From assembly GCA_949741925.1 (NCBI GenBank), contig CATJOY010000019.1, positions 1-34,946 on the forward strand: DNA of 34,946 nucleotides, written 5' to 3'. The DNA comes from an uncultured Desulfovibrionaceae bacterium (GTDB taxonomy: Bacteria; Desulfobacterota; Desulfovibrionia; Desulfovibrionales; Desulfovibrionaceae). The position numbers and the translations under genes are program-made. The notes beneath the pieces were generated by a model that worked only from the letters and a program-made list of their open reading frames with translations, ran no database searches and was not told the DNA's origin. Of the stretch, positions 1 to 29,905 are shown piece after piece; within the stretch, counting starts at the first letter, position 1; every line of letters begins with the position of its first letter.

Positions 1-78
1 AACATCAGGATTACCGGGAACATCAGGATTGCCGGGAACATCAGGATTACCGGGAACATCAGGATTGCCGGGAATATC
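1..78. repeat. 18-bp tandem repeat array encoding DVPGNP units
   Basis: About four copies of an 18-bp unit (GGGAACATCAGGATTRCC on the plus strand) run from the left edge, ending with a slightly diverged copy. One position alternates strictly A, G, A, G between successive copies, so the true period is 36 bp. The array is in frame with the adhesin and adds six residues per unit. It probably continues outside the window. Confidence 0.9.
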
Positions 79-573: not shown

Positions 574-631
574 GACGATCTCCTTCAGTATCTTTTTGGG
601 ATAAACAGCAGATAGAGCGAGCAAAACAGAG

Positions 632-680
632 AAATTCAAAAATAAGACAGCCCATATGAGTCAGGCGTCTCTCATGGGCT
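632..680 (-). terminator. Terminator-like hairpin in the adhesin 5' leader
   Basis: Read on the minus strand, a ~10-bp stem (AGCCCATGAG / CTC-AT-ATGGGCT, with a 2-nt bulge) encloses a 10-nt loop and is followed by a T-rich run (TCTTATTTTTG). It lies about 75 bp upstream of the adhesin start. It could end transcripts arriving from the exporter operon or act as an attenuator for the adhesin gene. The sequence alone does not distinguish these. Confidence 0.5.
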
Positions 681-781
681 GTGCTAAGATAGTGGAATTT
701 TAGTTAAAAAATAAAAACTTGCGCTGTCTTTAGCATACAAAATTTTTCGAGAGAGCATAAAAAAACCTACTAAATCAATAG

Positions 782-787
782 ATTATA
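782..787 (-). promoter_or_regulatory. Candidate -10 box for the adhesin gene
   Basis: A perfect TATAAT on the minus strand in an AT-rich stretch, about 210 bp upstream of the adhesin ATG. No good -35 is seen at 17 bp. A transcript from here would carry the terminator-like hairpin in its leader. Confidence 0.3.
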
Positions 788-1294
788 CACATCTGGCAAT
801 ACTAATCCGGGGATGCGAGAATCCAAATGACGTAGTAGGATCTCTGAGGGACGACACATATCCATCCCTCATTTTTTCCGTTTTTCCATATTAAATTTTT
901 ATCGAACATGTCAAGCCGTACAGCCGCATGAGAGAGCTTATGGAGGCGTTGCGCTGTGTGTGGGGCTTCTCCTGGCGCGCCCGTCATCTACACCGGGAAC
1001 AGGGGGTTTCATTCCCGGCAAAATTGTGTTGACGTGGCCGGATAGCTCCGAAGAGCAATTCCGCTTTCTTACATTATGCCTTGAATAACAAGAAGGTAGG
1101 GAGACTCTGTGCCGCAATGGAGAGAATGCTGTACAGATGCATCAGGCTCAAGAGCACATCCTGTCTCGCCATGTGGATGAACTGCTGAGCGCTTACAAAC
1201 GGTGGAAAAGCTTCTACGGCGTATGGCCCTCGTGCATGCCTGCCTATGCTTGCAGTCTTATATGCTGTGTCCTGCCGTGATGCAGCTATCGTTT

Positions 1295-3025
1295 TCAGCG
1301 TTCCCGCAACGCGTTCTGTTTGGCCTTGAGGATGGGCTTGAGCAGGTAATCCAACACGGTTTTCTTGCCGATCAGAATATCCGCGACGACAACCATGCCC
1401 GGAATGATGGGCAGCACCGTATCGTTATGAATGATTGAAGTTTTTTGTGTCCGCACTTTGACAAGATAGTAGTAATCTCCTTTTTTATCCTCAATGGTAT
1501 CCGCGCTGATGGATTCCAGCTTGCCCGTCAGGCCGCCATAGATGGAAAAATCATAGGTCGAGACCTTGACCATTACATCCTGCCCCGGCCGCAGAAAGGC
1601 CACATCCTTGGGGCTGACGCGGGCTTCCACCAGCAGGGTGTCATCCAGGGGCACGATATCCATGATCGGTTCGCCGGGTTTGACTACCCCGCCGAGCGTG
1701 TTGATGTGGATCTGCTTCACGGTGCCGCGTACAGGGGTGCGCAGTTCGGTACGGGTTACTCTGTCTCCGCCGGCGGAAAGGGTTTCCCGAAGGGAGTTTA
1801 GCTCCAACCGGCGTTTGCGGATCTCGTCGGTAATGGCCGCGTTCTGTTCCGCCCGGCGCGAGGCGATGCGCTGCCGCGATTCCTCGGCGGCGGCCTGCGC
1901 TTTGGGAATGCTGGCGGAAAGCACGCTGATCTGCCCCCGCAGTTCCACCACCTTTTGTTCCAGATTCAGAAACTCCAGGCGCGAAAAGTTGTTGCGCTGT
2001 AAAAGAGCGCCCGCCGTATCCCGCTGCCTGCCGGCCAGGGCCAGACTGTGTTCCAGATGCGCCTTATGCGCCTCCTGCTCCTGTACTTCCCGCCGGCGCT
2101 GTTCGTATTGGGCTTCAAGCACGCTGATTTCCGACTCCAATAAGTGCTGGCGCGAACGGTAAGCATTTTCCTGGTCAAGCACAAGCTGGCGCGCGCGCGC
2201 CAGGGTTTTTTCATCCACACTTCGCTGGATTTTGTGAGAAAGCCATGCCTCAAGATCGTTGGGAAACACAGGTTCCGTACCCTGGAGTTCCGCTTCCAGA
2301 CGAATCAGCGCCAGACTGTTTTCTATAGCCTTGCTCACTGCGTCGCGGAAGGAAGATTCGGCGAGTTCGTTGTCCAGCTGCGCTAACACGTCGTCCTTTT
2401 CCACAATTTGGCCTTCCCTCACCAGTATGCCGCGCAGGATGCCGCCTTCAAGATTTTGAATGGTTTGGGTGCGCTGCGATCCCACCACCTGCCCTTCGGC
2501 GTGCGTGACTTCATCAATTTCGGCAAAGGCAGCCCACACCAGCAGACAGGCAAACATCACGGTCACGGTCACAGAGAGGGCGCGTGCGCCGAACCGCGGC
2601 CGCCGCGCTAGGGCGGCGTCAACTTCTCCGGCAAAACGGATATCGTCGGGAGTGAGCCCGCGCAACGGCGCGTCCATGGCCGCAAAGAGACCGGGAGAAG
2701 CCGGCGGCCGAAAACCGCCCTCCTCGCCGGGCGGGGCCTCCTTCGGAGCGCGGTGCGTAGCCGCGCGCATGGATTGAAACAGCGTCTGATCCGGCTTTTG
2801 TTCATTTTCTCCGCCGAGGGTCAGAGCGCGTAAAAAGGACATGGCACCGGCCATGTTGCTATCACTGCCCGCGTCCCTGTTCGGCCCGGTTTCTTGCCCC
2901 CGCGGCGCGGACTGGTCCGCTGAGGACGCCGCATTCTCCACGTCGTCCCCCGGCGCGCATGTCGCGCCGGGTATACCGGTGGTACCGGGCGCGGAGGCAT
3001 TGGCTATATTGGATGTCCGCGTCAT
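1295..3025 (-). CDS. Type I secretion membrane fusion protein (HlyD/LapC family)
   Basis: This 576-residue protein has the HlyD layout: a cytoplasmic N-terminus, one membrane segment at about residues 148-168, a lipoyl-like half-motif after it (GGILRGILVREGQIVEKDDV region), a long coiled-coil hairpin (roughly residues 220-430, rich in E, Q, R and L), then a second half-motif and a beta-barrel-like C-terminus. It bridges the inner-membrane ABC exporter and the outer-membrane channel for adhesin secretion. Its ATG overlaps the stop of the ABC gene (ATGA), indicating translational coupling. The ~145-residue N-terminal extension is unusually long for HlyD proteins. It is low-complexity (A, G, P, D, E) and probably disordered. 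Family assignment is firm; the LapC role is inferred from context. Confidence 0.93.
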   Translation of the reverse strand: MTRTSNIANASAPGTTGIPGATCAPGDDVENAASSADQSAPRGQETGPNRDAGSDSNMAGAMSFLRALTLGGENEQKPDQTLFQSMRAATHRAPKEAPPGEEGGFRPPASPGLFAAMDAPLRGLTPDDIRFAGEVDAALARRPRFGARALSVTVTVMFACLLVWAAFAEIDEVTHAEGQVVGSQRTQTIQNLEGGILRGILVREGQIVEKDDVLAQLDNELAESSFRDAVSKAIENSLALIRLEAELQGTEPVFPNDLEAWLSHKIQRSVDEKTLARARQLVLDQENAYRSRQHLLESEISVLEAQYEQRRREVQEQEAHKAHLEHSLALAGRQRDTAGALLQRNNFSRLEFLNLEQKVVELRGQISVLSASIPKAQAAAEESRQRIASRRAEQNAAITDEIRKRRLELNSLRETLSAGGDRVTRTELRTPVRGTVKQIHINTLGGVVKPGEPIMDIVPLDDTLLVEARVSPKDVAFLRPGQDVMVKVSTYDFSIYGGLTGKLESISADTIEDKKGDYYYLVKVRTQKTSIIHNDTVLPIIPGMVVVADILIGKKTVLDYLLKPILKAKQNALRER

Positions 3026-5322
3026 TTGCCTCCCTCTCCGGGCTGCCCCGTTCCCTGTACGGACGGCGTTGCACCATGCGGCGGCCGGGCCGGAGCCGCA
3101 GCATTCGCAGCGCGCCTCGGCGCTTCTCCGCGCAGGCGACGCAATATTTTATCGCGTGGGCCGTCCAGCTTGATCCGGCCATTCTCCATAACAATCAGGC
3201 GGTCCACCATGCGAAGCATGGACAGGCGATGGGTGATGAGCAGTAGGGTTCGCCCTTCCATGACTGTGTGCAGACGCTTTTGCAGCATGAGTTCTGCATC
3301 CGTGTCCATGTTGCTTGTCGGCTCATCCAGAATGAGGACTTCCGGATCGCGCACAATCGCGCGGGCCAGGGCCACGGCCTGGCGTTGTCCGCCCGAAAGC
3401 GCTTTGCCCTGTTCTCCTACCTGGGCTGCGAAACCGGCCGGGTTATGGCGCAGAAAATCGGTCACGCCGGCGAGGGTGGCGGCCCGCAGAATCAGGTGAT
3501 CATTGATGGAGGGATCACCCAGCGCGATGTTATCGCGCACCGGGCCGTAAAACAGCACCACATCCTGCGGCAAAACGCTCACCCTGCTCCGCAGATCGGA
3601 ACTCGGCATTTGGCGGATATCCACTCCGCCGAACTTCACGGCACCCTCGGAGGGCTGGTACAGGCCGATAAGCAGACGTGACAGCGTGCTTTTGCCTGAT
3701 CCCATGGGACCGATGATCCCCACCCGCTCACCTGGCTCAATGCGCAGGTTCACCCTGTCCAGCGCCGGCCGCTCGGCATGGGGGTAGGTGAATGACACCC
3801 CTTCCATGCGGAAGGAGGAAGGGAGCGCGCTGAAATCTATACAGGAATGCCTGTCCTGGTTTTCCGAAGGCAGTTCCATGAGCAGATCCAGCGCTTTCAG
3901 CGCCACCCGCGAATTCTGCATCCTCGTGAGCAGCGAGGCCATCTGGAGCAGAGGCGCCATCACCCGGCCAACCAGAATGTTGCAGCCGATGAGCGCGCCC
4001 ATGGTCATCATTCCGTCGGTGATAAGATATACGCCCCAGATAATCATCGCTACGGTCACGATCTGGGTTATGAGCGTGGATACCGCAATGGCCAGGTTGT
4101 TGTATTTGCGCGCCTGACTGGAGGATGCGGCCGACAATCCGGCTACGGCCTCCCACAAGCGCTGCATGCAGCTTTCAGCCATGCAGGCCTTGAGGGTTTC
4201 AAGGCCGTTCACCATCTCTACCAGCAGAGCGTTCTTCTGCATATTCTGCCGGTAGCTGCTCTCGGCGCAACGTTTCGCCCTCCTCTGGAGAAGAAGCCCC
4301 ACCCCGAGCAGCACCGGCATGGCGCCAAGCGGTAGAAAAACGATCGGCCCACCGATAAAACTAATCAGCAGCAGGAAGATGACAAGAAAGGGCAAATCAA
4401 TACAGGCTAGAAGACTGGAAGAACTGAAAAACTCGCGCAACTGCTCGAATTCGCGCAGATTGTTGACCATTGCCCCGGTAGATTCCGGCCGCGCATCCAG
4501 ACGCATGGAAAGTATTTTGTCCACTAGTGTGCTTGAAAGCACAATATCCGCATTGCGCCCGGCCACGTCCACAAAATGCGTGCGGAGGGAAGAAAGCAGA
4601 AAATTGAACAGATAGATGATCACAATGCCCGCGGCCAGAACCCAAAGCGTTTCCGTCGCGTTGTTGGGCACGACGCGGTCATAGACGTTCATGACGAAAA
4701 GGGGGCTGCCCACGGCAATCAGGTTGATGACTATGCTGGCCAGCGCCACATGGCGATAGATGGGCGCATAGTAGCACAGCACATCCCAGAACCACCGTTT
4801 GCCGTGAAAAAGCGCAGGATTTTCTGTGCGCCGATCCGGCGCGCTCTCCACCGCCCCAAACAGGGCATAGCCCGAATACTCCTGCCGTAAATCATCCACG
4901 GGCACGCGCTGGGCGCTGTCGCCGGTTTCGGGAAAAATCACCTCCGCCATGCCGTCCCGCATGGACGTGAGCACACAGGATCTATCCCCCCCGAGGAGAA
5001 GAATGCAGGGGAGCACCGGAGTCGGGATATCCTCCAGCCGAGGGCGAAAAACAATACGCCCCGAAAGTCCCGCCTGGCGCGCCGCGCGCAGACAGGACCG
5101 GGGCGTCACCTTACTGCCCGACAGCCCGGCCAGCAACATTTGAGGAGAAACGATCCGCCCCCGTAGCCGCAACAATACCGAAAGGCTCCGCAACAGGCCG
5201 GGCATAAAATCCACGTCCGACGGGCGAAGCGCGGCCGCCCCACCATTCGCACTCGGGGCGGATTTCTCCTTCCGCCTCGGATCCCTCTCCGGAGCTGAGG
5301 CGGAAAGCGTTGTCATACGCAT
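3022..5322 (-). CDS. Type I secretion ABC transporter with cysteine-less C39-like domain (LapB family)
   Basis: The 766-residue protein carries an N-terminal peptidase-C39-like region (about residues 40-155), a six-helix membrane domain (about 180-470) and a C-terminal ATPase. Walker A GPMGSGKST is at 538-546, signature LSGGQ at 642-646 and Walker B LILDE at 663-667. The N-terminal domain has no cysteine at the position of the C39 catalytic residue near its start, so it should bind substrate without cleaving it, as in the C39-like domains of HlyB and LapB. It powers export of the adhesin encoded downstream. It sits 18 bp after the tolC-like gene and overlaps the membrane fusion gene by 4 bp. 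The ATG at 5322 has an AAGGGG sequence 7 bp upstream; a second ATG two codons in is possible. Confidence 0.94.
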   Translation of the reverse strand: MRMTTLSASAPERDPRRKEKSAPSANGGAAALRPSDVDFMPGLLRSLSVLLRLRGRIVSPQMLLAGLSGSKVTPRSCLRAARQAGLSGRIVFRPRLEDIPTPVLPCILLLGGDRSCVLTSMRDGMAEVIFPETGDSAQRVPVDDLRQEYSGYALFGAVESAPDRRTENPALFHGKRWFWDVLCYYAPIYRHVALASIVINLIAVGSPLFVMNVYDRVVPNNATETLWVLAAGIVIIYLFNFLLSSLRTHFVDVAGRNADIVLSSTLVDKILSMRLDARPESTGAMVNNLREFEQLREFFSSSSLLACIDLPFLVIFLLLISFIGGPIVFLPLGAMPVLLGVGLLLQRRAKRCAESSYRQNMQKNALLVEMVNGLETLKACMAESCMQRLWEAVAGLSAASSSQARKYNNLAIAVSTLITQIVTVAMIIWGVYLITDGMMTMGALIGCNILVGRVMAPLLQMASLLTRMQNSRVALKALDLLMELPSENQDRHSCIDFSALPSSFRMEGVSFTYPHAERPALDRVNLRIEPGERVGIIGPMGSGKSTLSRLLIGLYQPSEGAVKFGGVDIRQMPSSDLRSRVSVLPQDVVLFYGPVRDNIALGDPSINDHLILRAATLAGVTDFLRHNPAGFAAQVGEQGKALSGGQRQAVALARAIVRDPEVLILDEPTSNMDTDAELMLQKRLHTVMEGRTLLLITHRLSMLRMVDRLIVMENGRIKLDGPRDKILRRLRGEAPRRAANAAAPARPPHGATPSVQGTGQPGEGGK

Positions 5323-5340
5323 AACCGGGCCCCTTTCGCC

Positions 5341-6774
5341 TTACTTAAACCAGCCCGGAGGGAACGCCTCACGCGAATCTTCAGGGTCCACAGGCGGATT
5401 CATGGCAAGCGGTTCGGTATTGATGGAAAGCATCGGGAGCAGGTTTCCGGTCAGCGCGCAGAGCCGGTACGCACCCACAAGGATATTCCCGCGCGCGGTT
5501 TCCGCCTGGGTAGATGAATTGTACAGTTCGTTTTCTGCATCCAGCACGTCAAGGAGACTGCGCTGGCCGATTTGGAACTGCTCAAGATAGGCGGCGCGGG
5601 TGTACTCGTTGTACTCGACAGCTTCGGTATAGTGTTTGTATTGTTCCTGCGCGGCCTGATAGTTGATCCAGGTGCTTTCGATATCCAGTCTGAGGTCGTC
5701 GGCGAAATCATGCATGACCTGCCGCGCCTGACGAATGCGGGCTGAAGCCGCCTTGCGTTCCGCCACGTCAGCCCCGCTGTTGAAGATATTCCAGCGCATG
5801 GTGCCGAGCACGTCGAAGCTGTACACCCAGCGGTTGGAACTGCCGCCCCGATCTGTATAGCTGGGACCGGCCTCCAAATTGAAGGTGGGGTAGAAGGTGG
5901 ATTCCGCCAGTTCCTTCTGGGCTTGGGCGGCCCGGATATCCTGAAGATACGCCGCCAGCTTGGGATTGTGCTTTTGCGCCTTTTCAAAGACCAGCTCCGG
6001 ACCGGTGAATGTTTCGGGCGGCATGCTTACAGGCTCCATCTGGACCGCGGCCGGCATTCCTGTCAATCGCATATAGGTGTCTTCGGCCACCAGCAGGGCG
6101 GCTCTGGCTTCAGAAAGGCTCGACTGCGCGCGGGAGAGACGGGATTGTGCCTGGCTTACGTCCGCCGCGGTATCCGCCCCCAGTTCGGCGCGTTCGCGCG
6201 CCTGGGCCAGAATAGCCTTGTGCTGGGCCACGTTTTTTTCGGCAAGCGCATAGATTGAACGGCGGCGCAGAAGATCAATATGCGCGATCACACCATCCAG
6301 AGAGAGCGTCGTGGCCGTGTCGAACACCCGGGCCTTGACGGAATCAAGCGTGGATTGCGCGTTGCGCACCCGGGATCGGGTGGCGAAGCCATCCCAGATG
6401 GGTTGCACCAGACGGGCACTCCCCCCGACAACACTGTGCATGCCTTTATCTAGCCCCTGCGCCCTGGTCGTGGAATCGCTCAGCTGACCGAAACCGGCCT
6501 CTCCCGAAAGATCTACGCGCGGGCCAAAGCCGGCTTTTGCCCGTTCCACTTCGTGTTCGAGCACCTGCCGGTTTTCCAGCATACCGCGCAGGGAGCGGTG
6601 CGTGCGCAGCACGCCGTAAATGCTGTCCGTAACGGAAACAGCCTGCCCCGAAGGAGGCTGCGGAGGGTAATTACCGTCAACAAGAGGGGCGGCAACAGCC
6701 AGAGAGCTTACTAGCAGCGAAAGAAAAAGAGTATAAAAAGAAAGCGTAACAGGCCGATTCTTTCCTGATTTCAT
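5341..6774 (-). CDS. TolC-family outer membrane channel (LapE-like)
   Basis: This is a 477-residue outer-membrane efflux protein with an N-terminal signal peptide (hydrophobic core at about residues 10-28, cleaved near AVAAP), followed by the two repeated long-helix plus beta-strand halves typical of TolC. It forms the outer-membrane duct of the type I system. The frame is open to a GTG at 6783, but the Shine-Dalgarno GGGAG touches that codon and is 8 bp from the ATG at 6774, so I place the start at 6774. It is the first gene of the exporter operon tolC-ABC-HlyD on the minus strand and is divergent from lapG. Confidence 0.93.
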   Translation of the reverse strand: MKSGKNRPVTLSFYTLFLSLLVSSLAVAAPLVDGNYPPQPPSGQAVSVTDSIYGVLRTHRSLRGMLENRQVLEHEVERAKAGFGPRVDLSGEAGFGQLSDSTTRAQGLDKGMHSVVGGSARLVQPIWDGFATRSRVRNAQSTLDSVKARVFDTATTLSLDGVIAHIDLLRRRSIYALAEKNVAQHKAILAQARERAELGADTAADVSQAQSRLSRAQSSLSEARAALLVAEDTYMRLTGMPAAVQMEPVSMPPETFTGPELVFEKAQKHNPKLAAYLQDIRAAQAQKELAESTFYPTFNLEAGPSYTDRGGSSNRWVYSFDVLGTMRWNIFNSGADVAERKAASARIRQARQVMHDFADDLRLDIESTWINYQAAQEQYKHYTEAVEYNEYTRAAYLEQFQIGQRSLLDVLDAENELYNSSTQAETARGNILVGAYRLCALTGNLLPMLSINTEPLAMNPPVDPEDSREAFPPGWFK

Positions 6775-6867
6775 TGAACTCACTCCCTACGCTTTAGTTG
6801 TGGAAAGCGAATCAGGATATACTTAGATCCGCCTCCCTTCCTGAAAATAATGCGTCACACCGAACTT

Positions 6868-13698: not shown

Positions 13699-14979
13699 AT
13701 GGATGAGGTCTTTTCGCTTCAGGAAGGGGATGTTATCTGGAGCCATGCCCGCTTTGCGACCATGGACCCGGAACGGGATGGGGCCTATGGGCTTCTGGAA
13801 CAGCACAGCATGGTCACGCGGGGGGAGACCATTGTGGGGTTTGTGCCGGGCCTTCCGGATATTTCCGGCCGCCTTGCCGGGCGCGTTCACGTGTTTGACG
13901 CGCATGACGCGTTGGTTACCCCGGGGCTGGTGGATTGCCACACGCACCTTATTTTTGGCGGCGATCGGGCTAAGGAGTGGGAAATGCGCCTGAACGGCGT
14001 ATCCTATGCCGCTATCGCCCAAGAAGGAGGCGGCATAAACTTTACGGTCAGTCGGACGCGCGCCGCCTCAGCAGCTTCCCTCTACGACCGGGCGGAAAAA
14101 CGGTTGCTGCCCTTTTTGGCGGAAGGGGTTACCACCCTGGAGACCAAGTCCGGCTACGGGCTTGATCTCGTCAACGAACGTAAGCAGCTTGAAGTTGCTC
14201 GGAAGCTGGGGGAGAACCACGCCTTGGCTATATGCCCCACCCTGCTCTCCGCCCATGCGGTTCCGCCCGAATATCAAAACGATCCCGACGGGTACGTGGA
14301 TCTGATCTGCCGTGAAATCATGCCCACGCTGTGGCGGGAAGGGCTTTTCGAGGCTGTGGACGTCTTTTGTGAATCCGTGGGCTTTTCCTTGGAGCAGACC
14401 CGGAAAATTTACGAGACGGCCCGAGACCTGGGCATTCCGGTCAAAGGGCACATGGAACAGATGTCCGACTGCGGCGGGAGCGAGCTGGCGGCGGAATTCG
14501 GGGCCTTGTCCGTAGACCATATTGAGTATCTCGGAGAAAAGGCGATCCGCAAGCTCTCCGGCGGCCGAACCGTGGCCGTGCTCCTTCCCTTGGCCTTTTA
14601 CTTCTTGAGAGAGAAGCAAAAACCCCCTGTGGCCCTGCTTCGTAAATACCAAGTTCCCATGGCCGTTTCTTCCGACTTTAATCCGGGCACAAGCCCCTTT
14701 GCCTCGCTTCGCCTGGCCATGAACGCTGCCTGCGTGGAGTTTGGCCTTACCCCTCTGGAAGCTTGGGCGGGGGTGACGCGCAACGCCGCCCGGGCTCTGG
14801 GCAGAGAAAACAGCATCGGCATGCTGAAGGCGGGGTATAGAGCCGACTTTGCTGTATGGGACGCGCGCGAGCCGGTGGAAATATTGTACGAGCTTGGCGT
14901 CAACCCGCTCAAAGCAACGGTCTTCCGGGGCCGCTATGTGCCTCGTGGCCGGGAAGGCGCGGAAGCTGGGGCGCAGTAA
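13699..14979 (+). CDS. hutI: Imidazolonepropionase
   Basis: HutI hydrolyses 4-imidazolone-5-propanoate to N-formimino-L-glutamate, the third step of histidine breakdown. The 426-residue amidohydrolase has metal ligands His81 and His83 (DCHTHLIFGG), then the family blocks AQEGGGI, LETKSGYGLD, VKGHMEQ, SVDHIEYL and SSDFNPGT. The ATG at 13699 has AGGAG 8 bp upstream; a TTG start six codons earlier is less likely. No hutH, hutU or formiminotransferase gene is in the window, so it sits apart from any hut operon. Closely related cyclic amidohydrolases exist, but the conserved blocks favour HutI. Confidence 0.9.
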   Translation: MDEVFSLQEGDVIWSHARFATMDPERDGAYGLLEQHSMVTRGETIVGFVPGLPDISGRLAGRVHVFDAHDALVTPGLVDCHTHLIFGGDRAKEWEMRLNGVSYAAIAQEGGGINFTVSRTRAASAASLYDRAEKRLLPFLAEGVTTLETKSGYGLDLVNERKQLEVARKLGENHALAICPTLLSAHAVPPEYQNDPDGYVDLICREIMPTLWREGLFEAVDVFCESVGFSLEQTRKIYETARDLGIPVKGHMEQMSDCGGSELAAEFGALSVDHIEYLGEKAIRKLSGGRTVAVLLPLAFYFLREKQKPPVALLRKYQVPMAVSSDFNPGTSPFASLRLAMNAACVEFGLTPLEAWAGVTRNAARALGRENSIGMLKAGYRADFAVWDAREPVEILYELGVNPLKATVFRGRYVPRGREGAEAGAQ

Positions 14980-20295: not shown

Positions 20296-20373
20296 ATGCG
20301 CCTTTTCACAGATGCAATGCTGTTCGCCGCAGCCTCCGGCGCATTCACTTTTTCAGCACAGGAAATGCCATGA
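20296..20373 (+). CDS. Possible 25-codon leader peptide upstream of the DUF39 gene
   Basis: A short frame (ATG at 20296) preceded by GGGGGAAACC ends with TGA overlapping the ATG of the DUF39 gene (ATGA). The peptide has three methionines in 25 residues and is otherwise hydrophobic. The exact overlap and the purine-rich sequence before the ATG suggest translational coupling; no family is recognised and it may be chance. Confidence 0.3.
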   Translation: MRLFTDAMLFAAASGAFTFSAQEMP

Positions 20374-21536
20374 GCACAAAAATCAAGACCATCGCGGAAA
20401 TCAACGAACGTATTCGCAAAGGGAAAGCCGTTGTTCTCAACGCCGCTGAAATGACAGAGCTGGTACGCCGTTCCGGCAAGGAAAAAGCGGCCCGTGAAGT
20501 TGATGTGGTGACCACGGGCACCTTTTCGCCCATGTGCTCTTCGGGCATGCTCTTCAATATCGGTCAGGCCGAACCGCCGACCATCAAGACCTCTGCGGTT
20601 ACCTTGAACAACGTACCCGCATACGCCGGGCTGGCCGCTGTGGATTCCTATCTTGGAGCCACGGAGCCCGCCCTGGATGATCCTTTGAACAAGGTCTATC
20701 CCGGTCAGTTCAAATACGGCGGCGGGCATGTCATTGAGGATTTGGTGCAGGGCAGATCCGTGCGGCTCAAAGCCACGGCCTACGGAACCGACTGTTACCC
20801 GCGCAAAGAGCTGGATCGCCAAATTTCTTTGGCCGACTTGCCCTTTGCCCAGCTCCTCAATCCGCGCAACTGCTACCAGAGCTACAACGTGGCCGTAAAC
20901 GTCACCAATAAGACGAAATACACGTACATGGGCGTGCTCAACGCCAACATGCGCAACGCCAACTATGCCACGGCCGGAGAACTTTCTCCGCTGCTTAACG
21001 ACCCCTTTTTCCGGACTATCGGCCTGGGGACCAAGATCCTGCTGGGCGGCGGCATCGGGTGGGTATTGGGCGCGGGCACCCAGCACAATGCGAAGCCCCG
21101 GCGCACCGAGCGGGGCATACCGCTTTCCGGCGCGGGCACGTTGATGCTGCGCGGGGATATGAAAGGCATGAACCCCCGTTACCTCAGGGGACTTTCCTTT
21201 ACCGGTTACGGCTGCACCTTTGCCGTGGGCGTAGCTATTCCCATTCCCATCCTGGATGAGGAACTAGCCTTTTTCACCGGGGTTAGCGACGCGGATATTC
21301 CCATGCCCGTCAAGGATTACGGCTATGACTACCCGCATGGCGATCCCCGGGTTATTACCCATCTGACTTACGAACAGTTGCGCTCCGGTGAGGTAACCAT
21401 TCTCGGCAAGCAGGTTGAAACCGTACCGTTGACCAGTTACTCCCTCTCGTTGGAGTGTGCGGAGAACCTTAAGGAACTGATTGTCAAGGGTGAATTTTTG
21501 CTGACCGAACCCCAGGAAGCCATCCCGGCTGCCTAG
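20370..21536 (+). CDS. Homocysteine biosynthesis protein, DUF39/COG1900 family
   Basis: The 388-residue protein matches the DUF39 family, which in methanogens and sulfate reducers is required to make homocysteine from aspartate semialdehyde and a sulfide-derived sulfur without the usual acyl-homoserine route. Visible features are an N-terminal INERIRKGKAVV start, a CSSGM cysteine, the GTDCYPRKE block with a candidate catalytic cysteine, and a glycine-rich GTKILLGGGIGWVLGAGTQH stretch. No CBS or NIL/ferredoxin domain is attached. The ATG at 20370 has AGGA close upstream. The LarE-like gene starts 3 bp after its stop. Methionine-pathway partner metK is 8 kb upstream. Family call is firm; pathway role follows from published family work. 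Confidence 0.88.
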   Translation: MSTKIKTIAEINERIRKGKAVVLNAAEMTELVRRSGKEKAAREVDVVTTGTFSPMCSSGMLFNIGQAEPPTIKTSAVTLNNVPAYAGLAAVDSYLGATEPALDDPLNKVYPGQFKYGGGHVIEDLVQGRSVRLKATAYGTDCYPRKELDRQISLADLPFAQLLNPRNCYQSYNVAVNVTNKTKYTYMGVLNANMRNANYATAGELSPLLNDPFFRTIGLGTKILLGGGIGWVLGAGTQHNAKPRRTERGIPLSGAGTLMLRGDMKGMNPRYLRGLSFTGYGCTFAVGVAIPIPILDEELAFFTGVSDADIPMPVKDYGYDYPHGDPRVITHLTYEQLRSGEVTILGKQVETVPLTSYSLSLECAENLKELIVKGEFLLTEPQEAIPAA

Positions 21537-21539
21537 CAC

Positions 21540-22469
21540 ATGATGCACGATGCGCGCGCCGTGCCCGGCCCGGAGGAGAAAAACCGGCTGCGGGCCCTGG
21601 AAGAACAGGCCGCTGCCTGTCTGCAAAAGGCTTCTCAAGGCTGCCCCGGGCTCTCTATAGCCCTTTCCGGCGGGCTGGATAGCCGTTTGCTGATCCATCT
21701 CGCCCAACGGGCCGGGGTGGAGGTTACCGCCTGCCACCTGGCCGGGCCCCACGTGCCCCCGGCGGAAACTGCCTTTGCTAAGCGCTGGGCCGCAGAGCGG
21801 GGCATACCGTTGCGTATGCTCCAGGTTGATGTGTTGGAAGATGCGCAGGTAGCCGCCAACGGTCCGGAGCGTTGCTATTTCTGCAAACGTCGTTTGTTCA
21901 GCACCTTACAGGATGCTGTGGGAGATCAGCCGCTTTGCGACGGGACCAATGCCTCGGATCATGGCCTCTACCGGCCTGGCCTCAAGGCGCTGCATGAACT
22001 CGGGATTCTGTCGCCGTTGGCGGAGGCGGGTCTTTTCAAAGACGATATCCGGGCTTTGGCTCGCTTTACCGGGCTGGAGGCCCCCGGGCAGCGCGCCCGG
22101 CCCTGTCTTTTAACCCGTTTTCAGTACGGCCTCAGGCCAACCCATGTCTTGTTGGCCCGTCTGGCGGTGGCCGAGGCCGCTATTGCCGGTATTCTGGAGC
22201 GCCATGGTCTGACCGCGGGCCCGGCCATGCCGGTGGCCGAGGAGCCCGCCCGAGCCGAACCTGCCGACTTCCGTTTGCGGGTGATCGGAGAAAATGCCTA
22301 TGCGCTGCATCTGGCCTTGCCCGAAATTCCCGCGGCAGCTCTTCGAGAACTGGAAGCCGCGCTCATGGAACATGGCTTTCCCGGCGCGTCGTTGGCTGTG
22401 ATGGAGACAGTCAGCGGGCATTACGATAGGCAGCGGGCGCAGCCGGAGCCCAGGCCGGTTGCGGTCTGA
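21540..22469 (+). CDS. LarE-like PP-loop ATP-dependent sulfurtransferase with three cysteines
   Basis: The 309-residue protein has a PP-loop SGGLDS at residues 43-48, where the canonical form is SGGVDS; the family AMPylates its substrate and then transfers sulfur. Cys112 and Cys115 form the RCYFCK motif, and Cys189 (RARPCLLTRF) matches the position of the sacrificial cysteine of LarE. LarE homologues with three such cysteines are reported to bind a [4Fe-4S] cluster, so this one may be cluster-dependent and not self-consuming. It has no clear ribosome site and starts 3 bp after the DUF39 gene, so it is probably translationally coupled. No larA, larB or larC is present, making lactate-racemase cofactor synthesis unlikely. 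A role in sulfur supply to the DUF39 reaction is inference. Confidence 0.85.
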   Translation: MMHDARAVPGPEEKNRLRALEEQAAACLQKASQGCPGLSIALSGGLDSRLLIHLAQRAGVEVTACHLAGPHVPPAETAFAKRWAAERGIPLRMLQVDVLEDAQVAANGPERCYFCKRRLFSTLQDAVGDQPLCDGTNASDHGLYRPGLKALHELGILSPLAEAGLFKDDIRALARFTGLEAPGQRARPCLLTRFQYGLRPTHVLLARLAVAEAAIAGILERHGLTAGPAMPVAEEPARAEPADFRLRVIGENAYALHLALPEIPAAALRELEAALMEHGFPGASLAVMETVSGHYDRQRAQPEPRPVAV

Positions 22470-23590: not shown

Positions 23591-23631
23591 TTGACAATAG
23601 CCTGATTTTTTTGTTATTTATAGACAACTAT
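23591..23631 (+). promoter_or_regulatory. Candidate promoter and operator of the hydantoinase operon
   Basis: A perfect -35 TTGACA lies at 23591-23596, with TATTTA 18 bp downstream at 23615-23620 as a weak -10. Overlapping the expected start region is an inverted repeat ATAG-ACAA-CTAT at 23620-23631, a plausible repressor site. This is the only strongly AT-rich patch before the operon. It would give a ~240-nt leader. Confidence 0.4.
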
Positions 23632-23781
23632 TAGAATATAGACGTTCTCATCCGCAGCGCTGCCGGCGCTTCGCCACACGATCCTTTCTTAGAAATCGCC
23701 TTTTTTAGGGGGAAGAAGGCCTCCACCAACGGCGAAGCGATAAAACATCCTTTTTGGGCAGCGCCTTTCTTTAAAGAGCGG

Positions 23782-23797
23782 TACGCCGCGCGGCGTA
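23782..23797. promoter_or_regulatory. 16-bp perfect palindrome in the hydantoinase leader
   Basis: TACGCCGCGCGGCGTA is a perfect palindrome about 80 bp upstream of the hydantoinase ATG. It could be a dimeric regulator site or an RNA hairpin. The rest of the leader (23632-23875) shows no gene or known riboswitch pattern. Confidence 0.35.
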
Positions 23798-23875
23798 TCT
23801 TTGCCATCTCGGAGTTAGTGGGCGGAGGGGGCGGCTCGAATAGGCACAGCAATCCTCTGACCGGGGGGAGTCTCC

Positions 23876-25279
23876 ATGGGCATTCTGATCAGGAACGGCG
23901 TCCTCGTTACCGCCGGCGACACCTACAGGGCGGATATTCTGGTTGAAGCAGGGCACATCAAAGCCATCGGAGCGAATCTGGGGGATGGTTCGGAAACGGT
24001 GTACGACGCTGCCGGAAAATATATTTTTCCCGGCGGCATTGACGGCCACGTACATCTCGCTCAGATTTCTTCGCGGGGAACGGCCCTGACCGATTTCTCC
24101 ACCACCGTTGCTGCCCTTGCCGGCGGCACCACTACTGTTATTGCCTACGCCACGCAAAAGGAGAGCACGGGTATACTCGATTCCCTGGAACAGTTCCGTG
24201 AGGAACAGATCGAAGGGAAAAGCGCGGTGGATGTGGGCATGCATGCTTATTTGCGCAGTCCAAATGAAAACTCTTTGGCGGAGTTTCCCGCCCTGGCCGA
24301 AGCGGGCATTCCCACGGTCAAATTGTTTATGGCCGCCAAGGGTTCCGCTGTACACTGCGATGATAGGGCTATCTTCACCGCGTTGCGCAAGGCTAAAGAG
24401 TGCGGCATGCTGGTTATGGTCCACGCGGAAAATTCCGACCTTCTCAGCGTGCTCCAACAGGAGTTTGTGGATTCAGGCCGCACCGAACCTCTCTGGCACG
24501 GGCGGGCCCATCCGGAAGTCGCCGAAGAGGAGGCCACGGTGCGGGCCATACTTTTGGCCAAAGCCGCGGCCGCCCCTCTTTTTGTGGTTCATGTTTCCTG
24601 TGCCGACGCCATGCGCCGCGTCCGGGAGGGCAGGCAGAGCGGCGTCAGGGTGCTGGCGGAAACCTGCCCGCACTACCTGGTGCTTGATGCCTCGCGTTTG
24701 GCCCTGCCGGATTTTGAAGGCGGCAAATATGTCTGTTCCCCGCCGCTTCGCGATGCCGCCAACCAGGAGCCTTTGTGGCGTGCGCTCCAGGAGAGCTGGA
24801 TAGGGGTTGTGGGCTCGGATCACTGCGCTTTCAACTTCCACGGCGTCAAAGATCTCGGAAAAGGCTATTTCCCGAAAATTTCCAACGGGGTTCCCGGCAT
24901 GCAGGATCGCTTGCATATTCTCTATACCTACGGGGTGCTTGCCGGAAAACTTTCTCTGAACCGCATGGTGGATGTCTGGACCACCACCCCGGCCAAGGTT
25001 TTCGGGCTGTACCCGCAAAAGGGAAGCCTGGCCGTGGGCGCGGATGCGGATATCGTCATTTTTGACCCGGAATATTCCGATATTATTACGGCGGCAAGTT
25101 CGCTGGAGGGCATTGACTACGCCCTGTACGAGGGCTTTGTCCGAAAGGGCAGAGCGGAGAAGGTCTTCCTTCGCGGCGAGTTGGTTATGGATCAGGGCAA
25201 GTTTGTCGGCCATCTCGGCCAAGGGCGTTTTATCCGGCGCGCGCCTTTCGGATCGGCCTATGACGCGCCGGCTCTGTAA
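23876..25279 (+). CDS. Dihydropyrimidinase / hydantoinase
   Basis: This 467-residue cyclic amidohydrolase opens hydantoin or dihydropyrimidine rings to N-carbamoyl amino acids. The binuclear metal site is complete: His58 and His60 (GHVH), Lys149 as the carboxylated lysine (VKLFMAAKG), His183 (MVHAEN), His239 (VVHVSC) and Asp315 (GSDHCAFN). The sequence around the metal site (GGIDGHVH, LAGGTTTVI) is of the hydantoinase/dihydropyrimidinase type rather than classical allantoinase, but this superfamily changes substrate easily. GGGGGAG 5 bp before the ATG is a strong ribosome site. It is the first gene of the operon with the racemase-like protein, TRAP transporter and ureidoglycine aminohydrolase, which points to a cyclic ureide as substrate. 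Confidence 0.9.
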   Translation: MGILIRNGVLVTAGDTYRADILVEAGHIKAIGANLGDGSETVYDAAGKYIFPGGIDGHVHLAQISSRGTALTDFSTTVAALAGGTTTVIAYATQKESTGILDSLEQFREEQIEGKSAVDVGMHAYLRSPNENSLAEFPALAEAGIPTVKLFMAAKGSAVHCDDRAIFTALRKAKECGMLVMVHAENSDLLSVLQQEFVDSGRTEPLWHGRAHPEVAEEEATVRAILLAKAAAAPLFVVHVSCADAMRRVREGRQSGVRVLAETCPHYLVLDASRLALPDFEGGKYVCSPPLRDAANQEPLWRALQESWIGVVGSDHCAFNFHGVKDLGKGYFPKISNGVPGMQDRLHILYTYGVLAGKLSLNRMVDVWTTTPAKVFGLYPQKGSLAVGADADIVIFDPEYSDIITAASSLEGIDYALYEGFVRKGRAEKVFLRGELVMDQGKFVGHLGQGRFIRRAPFGSAYDAPAL

Positions 25280-25328
25280 TTGCGGCGCCGGAAACGAGCC
25301 TGCCGCGCCCTATGCATGAGGAGGAGGT

Positions 25329-26087
25329 ATGTGGAAGAAACTGGGAGCCCTGAGTATAGGCCACGCGCCCCGGCCACGGAGCATGGATGATTTTTTGCGG
25401 CTGCGTCCGGGGCTGCGCCTCATCGAGGTGGGGGCCTTGGATGGCGTTGATCCAACGAGCATTCCTTCGCTCAAACTTGAAGAGATCATGGCAGGACCGG
25501 GCCCGCGTCCGGCGGGGCAGTGGGAACCGGAGCCCGGCAAACAGTATCCTCCGGATACGTACCGCCTGATCACCCACATGAACCCCTGGCAGGTGGTTTC
25601 CATCGAGCATAGGGATCTGATGCCTCTGCTCCAGAAAAAAATTGACGAACTGAATAAAACGGATGCCGACGCCATTCTTATTCAATGTACAGGCCTTTTC
25701 CCGGGCCTGGTTTCCGCCAAACCGCTGCTGATACCCCACCTGGTTTTTGCCGGGGCTATGCAGTGGCTCAAGCCCGCCGGCAAGGTGGCCGTGGTCTGCC
25801 CTGTGGAAGGGCAAAAAAAGGCCGCAGCCGAGAAATGGCGGGCCGAGGGCTTGAATCCGGATGTGCTGGTGGCCTCTCCGTATTCGAGTCGGGATATTGA
25901 AAAGACCGGCCTGGCCCTGAAAGCGATGCGTCCCGAGGCGGTCATCCTGGATTGCTTCGGGTTTGCCGAGGAAAGCAAGGAGGGGCTTTCAGCCTATGTA
26001 GAGTGCCCCGTGCTCTCCATCCGCATGATCGTGCGTGATCTTCTCCTGCAGTGCTTCAACGAGCCCGCGGGATCGGATATCCCTTAA
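25329..26087 (+). CDS. AroM family protein, putative Asp/Glu/hydantoin-type racemase
   Basis: The 252-residue protein matches the AroM family (GALSIGHAPRPRSM at the N-terminus), within the aspartate/glutamate/hydantoin racemase superfamily. Two cysteines sit where the racemase catalytic pair is expected: Cys120 in ILIQCTG and Cys209 in ILDCFGF. AroM proteins have no proven function; in this operon, next to a hydantoinase, racemisation of a hydantoin or allantoin enantiomer is a reasonable inference. AGGAGGAGG lies just before the ATG. It starts 49 bp after the hydantoinase and 40 bp before dctP. Confidence 0.82.
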   Translation: MWKKLGALSIGHAPRPRSMDDFLRLRPGLRLIEVGALDGVDPTSIPSLKLEEIMAGPGPRPAGQWEPEPGKQYPPDTYRLITHMNPWQVVSIEHRDLMPLLQKKIDELNKTDADAILIQCTGLFPGLVSAKPLLIPHLVFAGAMQWLKPAGKVAVVCPVEGQKKAAAEKWRAEGLNPDVLVASPYSSRDIEKTGLALKAMRPEAVILDCFGFAEESKEGLSAYVECPVLSIRMIVRDLLLQCFNEPAGSDIP

Positions 26088-26127
26088 CCCTCAGCATTGC
26101 CTTGAAAAGGCAGCCGGAGACCAGAGC

Positions 26128-27114
26128 ATGAAACGTTTTTTCTCCCTTGTTATGTGTCTGATCGTCGTATGCGCATGGGCTTTTCCCGCTTCTGCGGCAA
26201 CGACGTTGCGCATGGGGCACCACCAGGGCCTCAACTCTATGCTGGATCGCACTGCCAAGCACTTTGCCAAACTGGTCAATGAAAAGACCAACGGCGAAGT
26301 CAAGGTGCGGGTTTTTCCCAGCGGCCAGTTGGGCGGTGAAACCGAAGCCCTGGATCTGCTCGAACAGGGCGGCATTGATATGACCATAACCTCCATCGGG
26401 CAGCAGGATAAGTACCTTCCGGCCATCGCCGCCCTCAGCTCCGCCTATACGTTCCGCGATACCGCGCATGCCGAAAAGGCCATGTTGGGCGAGTTTGGGG
26501 ATAAGGTCATCAAGGATGCGGCGGAGGCCTGCAACATCCAGATTCTCGGCTGGCTCCTGGTCGGCCCTCGGGATATGATGTTTAAGGGGGAGCCTGTGAC
26601 CTCTCTGGCGGAGCTGCAAGGGCTGAAGATGCGTTCCCCCGAGCAGTTCACCTGGGTTCGCATGTTTGAGCTTTTGGGCGCGCGCCCGACCCCGGTGCCC
26701 TGGGGCGAAGTGTACACCGCCATGCAGGCCGGTTTGGTCTTTGGCCTGGATACCCCGGCCCAGCAGGCGCTGGATATGAAGTTTTTTGAAGTTTCCAAGT
26801 CGCTTTCCAAGACCGGGCACATCTTCTTGCTCATGACCATCAACATCAACAAAAATAAGCTGGCCTCTCTCAAGCCCGAACACCGACAGGCCATTATGGA
26901 AGCCGGCAAGGAAACCTGCGCCTGGAGCAACGAGACCATCATCAAGCCGGAAAACGCCAAGGCTTATGATGACTTACAAGCCAAGGGCATCAAGGTAGTC
27001 GAGGTGAAGGATCTGCCCCAATGGGCCGAAGCCGTGAAGCCCATGCGTAAAGAAGTGGCCGAAAAGTTTCCCGGCGCGGATACATACTTTGAAGCCATCG
27101 ACAGCGTACAATAA
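26128..27114 (+). CDS. dctP: TRAP transporter substrate-binding protein (DctP family)
   Basis: The 328-residue periplasmic protein has a signal peptide (hydrophobic residues about 3-20, ending ASAATT) and the DctP fold, with LRMGHH at the start, the GQLGGETEALDLLEQGGIDM block and the GLKMRSPEQ arginine region that usually binds a substrate carboxylate. It captures the substrate for the DctQM permease. The ligand cannot be read directly; the operon suggests a ureide or a carboxylate derived from it. The ATG at 26128 has GGAG 9 bp upstream; a longer in-frame start overlapping the AroM-like gene is unlikely because the signal peptide begins here. Confidence 0.93.
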   Translation: MKRFFSLVMCLIVVCAWAFPASAATTLRMGHHQGLNSMLDRTAKHFAKLVNEKTNGEVKVRVFPSGQLGGETEALDLLEQGGIDMTITSIGQQDKYLPAIAALSSAYTFRDTAHAEKAMLGEFGDKVIKDAAEACNIQILGWLLVGPRDMMFKGEPVTSLAELQGLKMRSPEQFTWVRMFELLGARPTPVPWGEVYTAMQAGLVFGLDTPAQQALDMKFFEVSKSLSKTGHIFLLMTININKNKLASLKPEHRQAIMEAGKETCAWSNETIIKPENAKAYDDLQAKGIKVVEVKDLPQWAEAVKPMRKEVAEKFPGADTYFEAIDSVQ

Positions 27115-27126
27115 CTTCCCCATGAA

Positions 27127-27152
27127 AGCCGGAGCGCCATGGCGCTCCGGCT
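27127..27152 (+). other. Stem-loop between dctP and dctQ
   Basis: A perfect 26-bp palindrome of 13-bp arms begins 12 bp after the dctP stop. There is no T-run. Hairpins at this place often stabilise binding-protein mRNA and reduce expression of the downstream permease genes. Confidence 0.65.
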
Positions 27153-27224
27153 GTTCCGGCAGCGCGGTTTGCCGCGCTTCACCCCGTACGGGCGCCCCTC
27201 TGCGCCTGACAAGGAATTTCGCTT

Positions 27225-27701
27225 ATGACCCGCCTTATTAAGGTAATTTCCGCGGCAGTGCTCGGCATTGCCGTGTTGCTGGTCACTGTGCAGGTCTTTC
27301 TGCGTTTTGTCTTCAACGCGCCGCTGGCCTGGGTTGAGGAAGTGGGCCGTTATCTCTTTGTTTGGTCGGTATTTCTCGGCGCGGCCGCGGCGCTGGTCGA
27401 GGATAAGCATATCCGCATTACCGTACTGATCGACCGTTTCGGGCCGAAAGCCGAATTTTTCTCCCGGATGCTGGGGCATCTTCTCGGGCTGGGCAGCTTT
27501 AGCTTTGTGGCCTATTACGGGTACAAGATCGCTTTTTCCAACTGGAGCACCGGTTTTTACACCATTCCTGAACTGCCCCGAATTATTTTTTACCTGGCTG
27601 TGCCTGTTTCCATGACCATTATGGTCATCTATCTGCTCGGGCTTGTGTATGCCTTGTTTACGAAAAAGCAGGAGCCCGGCCCCGGCTCCTCGTCCGATTG
27701 A
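27225..27701 (+). CDS. dctQ: TRAP transporter small permease (DctQ family)
   Basis: The 158-residue protein has four predicted membrane segments (about residues 5-25, 40-60, 85-105 and 120-145) and the DctQ pattern FVFNAPLAWVEEVGRYLFVW followed by HIRI. It pairs with the large permease in the inner membrane. AAGGA is 9 bp before the ATG. It is 19 bp upstream of dctM. Confidence 0.93.
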   Translation: MTRLIKVISAAVLGIAVLLVTVQVFLRFVFNAPLAWVEEVGRYLFVWSVFLGAAAALVEDKHIRITVLIDRFGPKAEFFSRMLGHLLGLGSFSFVAYYGYKIAFSNWSTGFYTIPELPRIIFYLAVPVSMTIMVIYLLGLVYALFTKKQEPGPGSSSD

Positions 27702-27720
27702 TTGAGGGGAGACCGCCTGC

Positions 27721-28995
27721 ATGGAACTTATACTGCTTTTCGCGACCTTCCTTATCCTTGTTTTTCTAGCCGTGCCCATTTCTACGGCCATGCTCGCCGC
27801 TTCGGTGCTCAACGTTTTGATAACCGGGGTTCCGGGCGTTGTTACCGCGGATAAGATGCTCAACTCCATGAATTCATTCCCGCTGATGGCCGTGCCCTTC
27901 TTTATCCTGGCCGGGAACATCATGAACCAGGCCGGGCTGACCCATCGGCTGGTGGCCGCCTCCAAGGCTCTTGTCGGCCACTATTACGGGGGCACAGCCC
28001 AGGTCAACGTAGTTACAAATATTGTGTTCGCGGGTATTTCCGGCTCCGCCACGGCAGATGGCGCGGCTATCGGCACCACGCTTATTCCCTCGATGAAAAA
28101 AGAAGGCTACGGGACCGGCTTTTCCGCCGGTCTTACCGCCGCAGCCAGTATGGTTGGTCCTGTTATTCCGCCGAGTATCGGCCTGATCGTCTATGCAACC
28201 ATTGCTGAACTTTCCGTGGCCCGGCTGTTCCTGGCCGGTCTCGGCCCCGGGCTTGCCATGGGGCTTGCCCTGATGATCTATGTGGCTGTTGTTTCGCGGA
28301 AGCGCGGGTATCCCAAATCGCAACGCATGCCATGGAGCGAGCGCCTCGTCGTGATTACTCGGGCCCTGCCCGCCGTGGCCGCGCCGGTGATCCTGGTGGG
28401 CGGCATTGTTACCGGCCTGTACACCGCCACCGAGGGCGGCGTGGTGGCCTGTGTTTACGGCGTTGTGTTGGGATTGTTCATTTACAGGGATCTGCACCTG
28501 CGGGATATCCCCGGTATTCTTCTTGAGGCCGCGCAGATGACGGCAGTTTCCCTATTCATCCTCTCTACCGCCGTTATCTTCGGTTTTTTGCTGACTGTGC
28601 ATGGTTTTTCGGATGTGCTGGTTGACCTTATCGCCTACCTCGATCCTTCCCCGACGGCCTTGATTCTGCTGATCGTGGTCTTTTTCCTGTTGGTCGGCAT
28701 GTTCGTCGAGGGGATGGCGACTATGATCATCTTTGTGCCGGTGCTGATTCCCATCATTGCTGAGTATAATCTTGATCCGGTCCACCTCGCTTTGATTATC
28801 CATGTTTCTATTCTGGTCAGCATGATTACCCCGCCTGTGGGCATCATGCTGTATATTGAAGCGGCCATTGCCAAGATTCCGGTGCATGAGGTGGAGGTTA
28901 TCCCCTTTGTGACAACTATTCTGGCCGTTATCCTGTTGATGGCTTTCTTTCCGCCGTTGGTCACCTTTTTACCGAACTACTTTATGGGCTCCTAG
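27721..28995 (+). CDS. dctM: TRAP transporter large permease (DctM family)
   Basis: The 424-residue, twelve-segment membrane protein is the transport subunit of the sodium-coupled TRAP system. Family blocks are present: PLMAVPFFILAGNIMNQAG, FAGISGSATADGAAIGT, MVGPVIPPSI and the C-terminal SMITPPVGIMLY. GGGGAGA precedes the ATG. Its stop is 15 bp before the ureidoglycine aminohydrolase gene. Confidence 0.96.
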   Translation: MELILLFATFLILVFLAVPISTAMLAASVLNVLITGVPGVVTADKMLNSMNSFPLMAVPFFILAGNIMNQAGLTHRLVAASKALVGHYYGGTAQVNVVTNIVFAGISGSATADGAAIGTTLIPSMKKEGYGTGFSAGLTAAASMVGPVIPPSIGLIVYATIAELSVARLFLAGLGPGLAMGLALMIYVAVVSRKRGYPKSQRMPWSERLVVITRALPAVAAPVILVGGIVTGLYTATEGGVVACVYGVVLGLFIYRDLHLRDIPGILLEAAQMTAVSLFILSTAVIFGFLLTVHGFSDVLVDLIAYLDPSPTALILLIVVFFLLVGMFVEGMATMIIFVPVLIPIIAEYNLDPVHLALIIHVSILVSMITPPVGIMLYIEAAIAKIPVHEVEVIPFVTTILAVILLMAFFPPLVTFLPNYFMGS

Positions 28996-29010
28996 CCCGG
29001 AGGATGCAGC

Positions 29011-29772
29011 ATGCCTAAAATCAGACACGATCAGGTGGATATCATCTCCCGCAGCCGCGCTACTGTGGCCGAGGGGTACATGGTTATTCCCAAAGTCAAC
29101 CGTTGCAACAGCGTGTTGCCACAGTTTGAAAACGTTGAGGCCTTTGTGCTGGCCACGCCCGATATCGGCGCCAAATTCATAGAACATGAGCTGGTGTTTG
29201 CCGCGGACGGTCGCACCAGAAGTTGCATCAATGATCCTTTTGAGCATTTTCTGTATGTGCTGGAAGGGGGCGTCAAGCTGACCATCGGAGAGAAGACCCG
29301 CCACGAATTCACCGAGGGCGGGTATGCCTATCTGCCGCCGGGAACCACGTTCAGCCTGGAAAATACCGGAGCCGAAGAAAGCCGGATGCTCTGGCTCAAG
29401 CACCGTTTTATGCCGTGGGAAGATCTCGCGCCTAAGCTGTACATCGGCAGCGAAAAAGATGTAACCAGCCGCCCCGGGCAGCCGCTCCTGCCTTTTGCGG
29501 ATGATCTGGCCTATGATTTGGGCATGCTTATCGTCAACGTGGAGCCCGGCCGCGGCATCTCCCAGGTGGAGACGCACATTATGGAACACGGGCTGTATAT
29601 GCTGGATGGCCAGGGGCTTTACTGGCTGAACGGCGCTTATCATGAAGTGATGAAGGACGACTTCATCTATTTTGCCCGGTACTGTCCGCAATACTTTTAC
29701 GTGACAGGCGAATCCACGGGGCGCTATCTTCTCTATAAGGATGTCAACCGGGATTACGACGATATGCTGTAA
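29011..29772 (+). CDS. allE: (S)-ureidoglycine aminohydrolase-like bicupin
   Basis: AllE-type enzymes release ammonia from (S)-ureidoglycine to give ureidoglycolate in purine (allantoin) breakdown. The 253-residue protein has two cupin halves (about 55-130 and 170-250). The manganese ligands of the family are all seen in the C-terminal cupin: Glu187, His189, His193 and Gln227 (VETHIMEHGLYM and RYCPQYFY). Their spacing (2, 4, 34) equals that of the plant enzyme, and the ending RYLLYKDVNRDY is typical. A GGAGGA ribosome site fixes the start. It is the last gene of the operon. No allantoate amidohydrolase or ureidoglycolate enzyme is in the window, so either these lie elsewhere or this member acts on a related ureido compound. 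Confidence 0.85.
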   Translation: MPKIRHDQVDIISRSRATVAEGYMVIPKVNRCNSVLPQFENVEAFVLATPDIGAKFIEHELVFAADGRTRSCINDPFEHFLYVLEGGVKLTIGEKTRHEFTEGGYAYLPPGTTFSLENTGAEESRMLWLKHRFMPWEDLAPKLYIGSEKDVTSRPGQPLLPFADDLAYDLGMLIVNVEPGRGISQVETHIMEHGLYMLDGQGLYWLNGAYHEVMKDDFIYFARYCPQYFYVTGESTGRYLLYKDVNRDYDDML

Positions 29773-29779
29773 CGGGATA

Positions 29780-29829
29780 GCCCCCCTCGGGTTCTGTCTG
29801 AAGCCCGGGATTGTTGCTCCGAGGGGGGC
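29780..29829 (+). terminator. GC-rich hairpin closing the hydantoinase operon
   Basis: An 11-bp GCCCCCCTCGG / CCGAGGGGGGC stem with a loop of about 28 nt starts 8 bp after the allE stop. There is no T-run, so it may be a Rho-assisted terminator or a 3' stabilising element. Confidence 0.4.
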
Positions 29830-29905
29830 CGCTTTGCCGCCTGGCGGCATGTGAAGTGTCATATTGTGGAGCCCTCCGGCCCGGCGGGGGGCTCGTGGTG
29901 TTTGT

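Follow-up and report, generated by a model that had tools for sequence, protein, structure and literature searches.

Organization of the operon

The window, i.e., the whole stretch of 34,946 nt analysed here from contig CATJOY010000019.1 of an uncultured Desulfovibrionaceae bacterium (genome G000), carries at 23876–29772 an operon of six intact, co-directional genes on the + strand. In order, they encode a cyclic amidohydrolase of the D-hydantoinase/dihydropyrimidinase family (hereafter, the hydantoinase), an AroM family protein, the DctP, DctQ and DctM components of a tripartite ATP-independent periplasmic (TRAP) transporter, and an AllE-type bicupin. The intergenic gaps are 49, 40, 110, 19 and 15 nt when dctP is taken to start at 26128, the corrected position, and purine-rich sequences resembling ribosome-binding sites precede the gene starts. 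All six closely spaced genes had been described in a first-pass annotation made from the sequence alone, albeit with the operon beginning at 23591; this position falls in the AT-rich upstream region, the first start codon being at 23876. A simple scan of that AT-rich stretch found no sigma-70 site. Gene identities were assigned by NCBIfam and Pfam profile searches, in which the cut-offs of TIGR02033 and TIGR03214 are of the equivalog type.

Two inverted-repeat structures accompany the genes. A perfect 13-bp inverted repeat (27127–27152, strand not assigned) lies between dctP and dctQ and is possibly a hairpin stabilizing or attenuating the transcript. The strong hairpin 3′ of the cupin gene (29773–29840, + strand, folding at about −34 kcal/mol) contains a terminator-like site at 29786–29809 and is probably the transcript end. 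The GC content of the operon (57.0%) is close to that of the rest of the window (57.3%); with this uniformity, base composition gave no sign of a recent transfer.

Enzymes and transporter of the operon

The bicupin (253 aa, 29011–29772) reached 240 bits on the AllE model TIGR03214, above the cut-off of 200, and is predicted to be a member of the (S)-ureidoglycine aminohydrolase family. Residues E187, H189, H193 and Q227, together with Y204, Y239 and K243, are invariant in an alignment of five sequences; the first four, all present as the first-pass annotation had stated, correspond to the metal ligands of the Arabidopsis enzyme. This cupin is the sole AllE match in the genome. In a sibling genome (G001), AllE, a GntR regulator and the ureidoglycolate dehydrogenase AllD stand together, whereas the matching locus of the present genome, on contig C84, has no AllE, which makes the window cupin a candidate supplier of this activity. 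The gap at the AllD locus and the cupin in the window combine into a direct genetic prediction.

The hydantoinase (467 aa, 23876–25279) scored 487 bits on TIGR02033 (cut-off 393), its best family, and remained under both cut-offs for ErtD, the hydantoin-5-propionate amidohydrolase (221 and 201 bits vs. 650 and 600). The binuclear metal site proved complete in the alignment, as had been claimed for it, with all six ligands in place (H58, H60, K149, H183, H239 and D315). In dihydropyrimidinase, the ligand is bound by Tyr155, Ser289 and Asn337 (PMC8860565). The Ser and Asn equivalents are retained here, and Ala154 occupies the position where Tyr155 is expected. Tyrosine was present at this position in 20 of 20 other hydantoinase-type proteins compared, and the allantoinase-like and ErtD-like proteins of the same alignment have Asp, Asn or Glu in this column. 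The replacement of Tyr155 by Ala need not abolish binding, because the Y155A mutant of dihydropyrimidinase still binds 5-aminouracil, about 2.5-fold more weakly (PMC8860565). If the operon does serve ureide utilization, the D-hydantoinase family would extend to a natural substrate handled without this tyrosine.

The AroM protein (252 aa, 25329–26087) was matched by PF07302 with 126 bits, above the gathering score of 23.8. Its residues Cys120 and Cys209 are matched to the paired cysteines of the PF01177 Asp/Glu/hydantoin racemases (hhalign probability 79%), which supports a distant relationship to these enzymes and is not proof of activity. Of the "two-cysteine racemase-type protein" annotated at the first pass, the cysteines are confirmed, and the racemase role is putative. 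An AlphaFold model built from the single sequence had a pLDDT of 50, and a search of the PDB with it was uninformative. In another family of the phylum (genome G121, locus L029), an AroM gene follows genes for an ErtD-like amidohydrolase, an ABC importer and an M20 enzyme, and by analogy this locus independently ties AroM to the catabolism of cyclic ureides; the neighbours of three other AroM genes (L028, L030 and L031) are unrelated. A literature search found no established function for AroM, and another on allantoin racemase with hydantoinase returned nothing useful. Should the ureide interpretation be right, AroM would gain a testable role.

DctP (328 aa, 26128–27114; TIGR00787, 188 bits, cut-off 175), DctQ, the small permease (158 aa, 27225–27701; PF04290, 109 bits, cut-off 28) and DctM, the large permease (424 aa, 27721–28995; TIGR00786, 368 bits, cut-off 268) were all matched by their profiles and make up the full DctP-TRAP transporter that the first-pass annotation had named. 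Alignment to TRAP binding proteins, among them SiaP, whose structure is solved, showed that DctP retains the carboxylate-selecting arginine, Arg169, and has Thr209 where the NP motif normally supplies Asn. DctP-TRAP systems are limited to carboxylates by this arginine (PMC4646407). Import of plain allantoin, hydantoin or dihydrouracil is therefore disfavoured, given the carboxylate-selecting arginine of DctP and the loss of Tyr155 to Ala in the hydantoinase. Allantoate-type ureides and acidic hydantoins are both candidates for the imported substrate. The earlier proposal of hydantoin, dihydropyrimidine or allantoin, which are neutral compounds, is thereby weakened, and the more general idea of a ureide operon is supported.

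Candidate pathway genes elsewhere in the genome

The genome comprises 2.79 Mb in 109 contigs and is 98% complete. Profile searches found no allantoate amidohydrolase inside the operon, in agreement with the first-pass annotation, and yielded two M20 candidates elsewhere. The M20 protein of contig C39 passed the cut-off of 399 for a subfamily model called "allantoate amidohydrolase" (433 bits) but not that of 520 for ErtE, the N-carbamoyl-glutamate amidohydrolase model (388 bits); the second M20 gene runs off contig C20. AllD is encoded on C84 (556 bits, cut-off 496), divergently from a GntR/FCD regulator gene with a carbamate kinase gene behind it. FdrA and AllG are encoded at two loci, one on C20 and the other on C49, where genes for a TRAP system and an amidase adjoin them; the control search for AllG matched E. 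coli only. In E. coli, AllD, FdrA/AllG and carbamate kinase belong to the anaerobic route of allantoin breakdown, for which fdrA, ylbE and ylbF have been discussed as candidates for the oxamate carbamoyltransferase (PMC3364942). The claim of a self-contained route had to be given up, as the M20 step, AllD, FdrA/AllG and carbamate kinase all lie on other contigs. An anaerobic purine route via YgeX (2,3-diaminopropionate ammonia-lyase) was discarded, there being no TIGR03528 match in the genome.

Two of these contigs carry further clusters of amidohydrolase and TRAP genes. On C39 (L017:9255-18420), an ErtD-like amidohydrolase with its own TRAP genes and a sigma-54 regulator are found near the M20 gene, as a second cyclic-amidohydrolase/TRAP system of the genome. 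On C49 (L142:6694-16516), the second FdrA/AllG context, genes for a PRK09061-type amidohydrolase, TRAP components, FdrA, AllG and an AtzE-like amidase are clustered.

Comparison with related and known systems

The family set comprised 288 genomes, including that of the bacterium itself, and none of the 287 others encodes a hydantoinase or a cupin closely similar to that of the window. The next-best hydantoinase was 43% identical within the family and 45% in the phylum sample, the next-best cupins within the family were 33–36% identical, and the next-best AroM of the phylum sample was 44% identical. The 80 nearest AllE-type cupins found in the Genome Taxonomy Database (GTDB) collection share no more than 43% identity with the window cupin. 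Among their loci, five have a hydantoinase-type gene near the cupin (L034, L035, L041, L090 and L093), as does a Sagittula plasmid (L008), and six have an allantoinase-like gene. AroM was near the cupin at none of the 80, and neither was a co-directional TRAP system, TRAP genes occurring on the opposite strand at two; at L032, L033, L036, L039 and L049, inspection by eye recognised no conserved ureide neighbours. No relatives were confirmed for AroM in the genome collection and viral contigs or for the hydantoinase in viral contigs, which says little.

A functional parallel is a standard allantoin operon in another genome of the family (G031, L147), composed of genes for an ABC importer, a PF01177 racemase, an allantoinase (395 bits, above the cut-off of 358), an M20 enzyme, a ketol-acid reductoisomerase-like (KARI-like) protein and AllE, the latter 35% identical to the window cupin. 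Both operons have slots for an importer, a racemase-type protein, a cyclic amidohydrolase and AllE, in support of the ureide operon suggested at the first pass. In G031, however, the importer is of the ABC type, the racemase belongs to PF01177, the ring-opening enzyme is a true allantoinase, and M20 and KARI-like genes form part of the operon itself. The KARI-like gene there (L147:9972-10997) may act on a ureide intermediate, since a search of G031 did not turn up AllD.

Compared with the anaerobic E. coli allantoin pathway (AllB, AllC, AllE, AllD, FdrA/YlbE/YlbF and carbamate kinase, with an orphan step discussed in PMC3364942), the likeness lies in the AllE-type cupin of the operon and in the AllD, AllG/FdrA, carbamate kinase and M20 genes of the genome. 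In contrast to E. coli, these genes are scattered over contigs, with M20 and AllD outside the operon, an enzyme of the D-hydantoinase family stands in place of AllB, and a TRAP importer and AroM are added. The Kaistia and Sagittula clusters (L034, L093 and L008) likewise place a gene of the hydantoinase family near that for an AllE-type cupin, but they carry M20, RidA and ABC importers without AroM or TRAP, and their hydantoinases keep Tyr155. These clusters also join BtpA and TenA genes, with a PTE-family gene in Kaistia. The hydantoin-type operon at L029 shares with the window the pairing of AroM and a cyclic amidohydrolase; it differs in the sequences of both proteins (31% identity for the ErtD-like amidohydrolase and 29% for AroM), in its ABC importer and M20 gene, and in lacking a cupin.

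Proposed function and competing explanations

We consider the six genes to be a ureide-utilization operon built of non-standard enzyme families, whose product, ureidoglycolate, would be passed on to AllD, FdrA/AllG and carbamate kinase, encoded at scattered loci, and assign this reading a probability of about 50%. The TRAP system would import a ureide, probably one bearing a carboxylate; AroM may equilibrate the stereocentre at ring C5, in the role of a hydantoin or allantoin racemase; and ring opening by the hydantoinase would give an N-carbamoyl (ureido) acid. A trans-encoded M20 amidohydrolase, that of C39 or C20, would then remove a carbamoyl group, and the cupin would release ammonia from ureidoglycine to form ureidoglycolate. 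AllD and carbamate kinase (both on C84) and FdrA/AllG (C20 or C49) would oxidize and cleave this product, with carbamoyl phosphate and ATP as the yield. If so, this anaerobe, most of whose relatives have no AllE, would also draw nitrogen and energy from ureides.

Several observations weigh against this reading. The exact six-gene combination, whose conservation had been proposed as a check on the idea, is found in no other genome searched. The hydantoinase lacks Tyr155 and, with 265 bits on the allantoinase AllB model TIGR03178, remains far below the cut-off of 358. The carboxylate-selecting arginine of DctP is kept, whereas allantoin and hydantoin are neutral. An allantoinase-like enzyme with its own TRAP system is encoded on C39 (323 bits) and could be the real source of allantoate. 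Moreover, the TGGTCTGACCA-like repeat of the AllD/GntR locus on C84 is missing from the region upstream of the operon and is no more frequent in the window than expected by chance; a shared GntR operator was accordingly rejected, and the presumed co-regulation gained no support from it.

The most serious competitor, tentative and clearly less probable, is an operon for carboxylated hydantoins, in which the TRAP system would import an acidic hydantoin (e.g., hydantoin-5-propionate or -acetate) or dihydroorotate, AroM would racemize it, the hydantoinase would form an N-carbamoyl acidic amino acid, and an M20 enzyme encoded elsewhere would free the amino acid, the cupin not being a ureidoglycine hydrolase. 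The retained arginine of DctP (PMC4646407) fits such substrates, as do the profile score of the amidohydrolase, a D-hydantoinase and not an allantoinase, the sub-threshold ErtE score of the C39 M20 protein and the existence of a TRAP-linked ErtD-like enzyme in the genome. This explanation would, however, leave without a role a cupin that has every AllE ligand and scores above the AllE cut-off. The similarity of the window hydantoinase to ErtD is also low, and C39 encodes a better ErtD-like protein (458 bits).

It is rather unlikely that the operon is a patchwork serving no single pathway, i.e., a carboxylate TRAP system flanked by enzymes of different pathways, with the cupin standing in for the AllE that the C84 locus lacks. 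The absence of close hydantoinase and cupin copies from the other family genomes, the lack of AllE on C84 although the sibling has it there, and the failure to find a shared operator would all agree with this. The tight co-directional spacing speaks for a functional unit instead, the slots correspond to those of the allantoin operon of G031, and the uniform base composition shows no trace of separate recent acquisitions.

More doubtful still is a complete short route bypassing allantoate, in which the middle step is not needed. Ring opening of a hydantoin with an amino group at C5 yields ureidoglycine, the substrate of AllE. A 5-amino- or N-substituted-amino-hydantoin with a carboxylate recognised by the TRAP system would thus be opened straight to ureidoglycine, and the racemase, hydantoinase and cupin would suffice. 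The change of Tyr155 to Ala could make room for such a compound, and the route is consistent with the anatomy of the operon, albeit with no direct support. A pyrimidine (dihydrouracil-type) catabolism operon is very improbable: the best family of the amidohydrolase, TIGR02033, bears the name dihydropyrimidinase, but the ligand-binding Tyr155 of that enzyme is Ala here, according to the profile searches the operon encodes neither a dihydropyrimidine dehydrogenase nor an enzyme of the beta-ureidopropionase type, and dihydrouracil, a neutral compound, offers a racemase no stereocentre.

Other features of the window

The window also encodes an imidazolonepropionase, HutI, at 13699–14979 (TIGR01224, 430 bits). 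At 20367–22469, a gene of the homocysteine-biosynthesis family (PF01837, 485 bits) lies three bases ahead of that for a LarE-like sulfur transferase (TIGR00268, 164 bits), and a LarC2 gene (NF052512) is present on C39. Positions 1–6783 carry type I secretion genes, judged by eye to encode an ABC exporter, a membrane fusion protein and an outer membrane protein, and next to them, at the contig edge, the gene of a protein with a repetitive GNPDVP tract.

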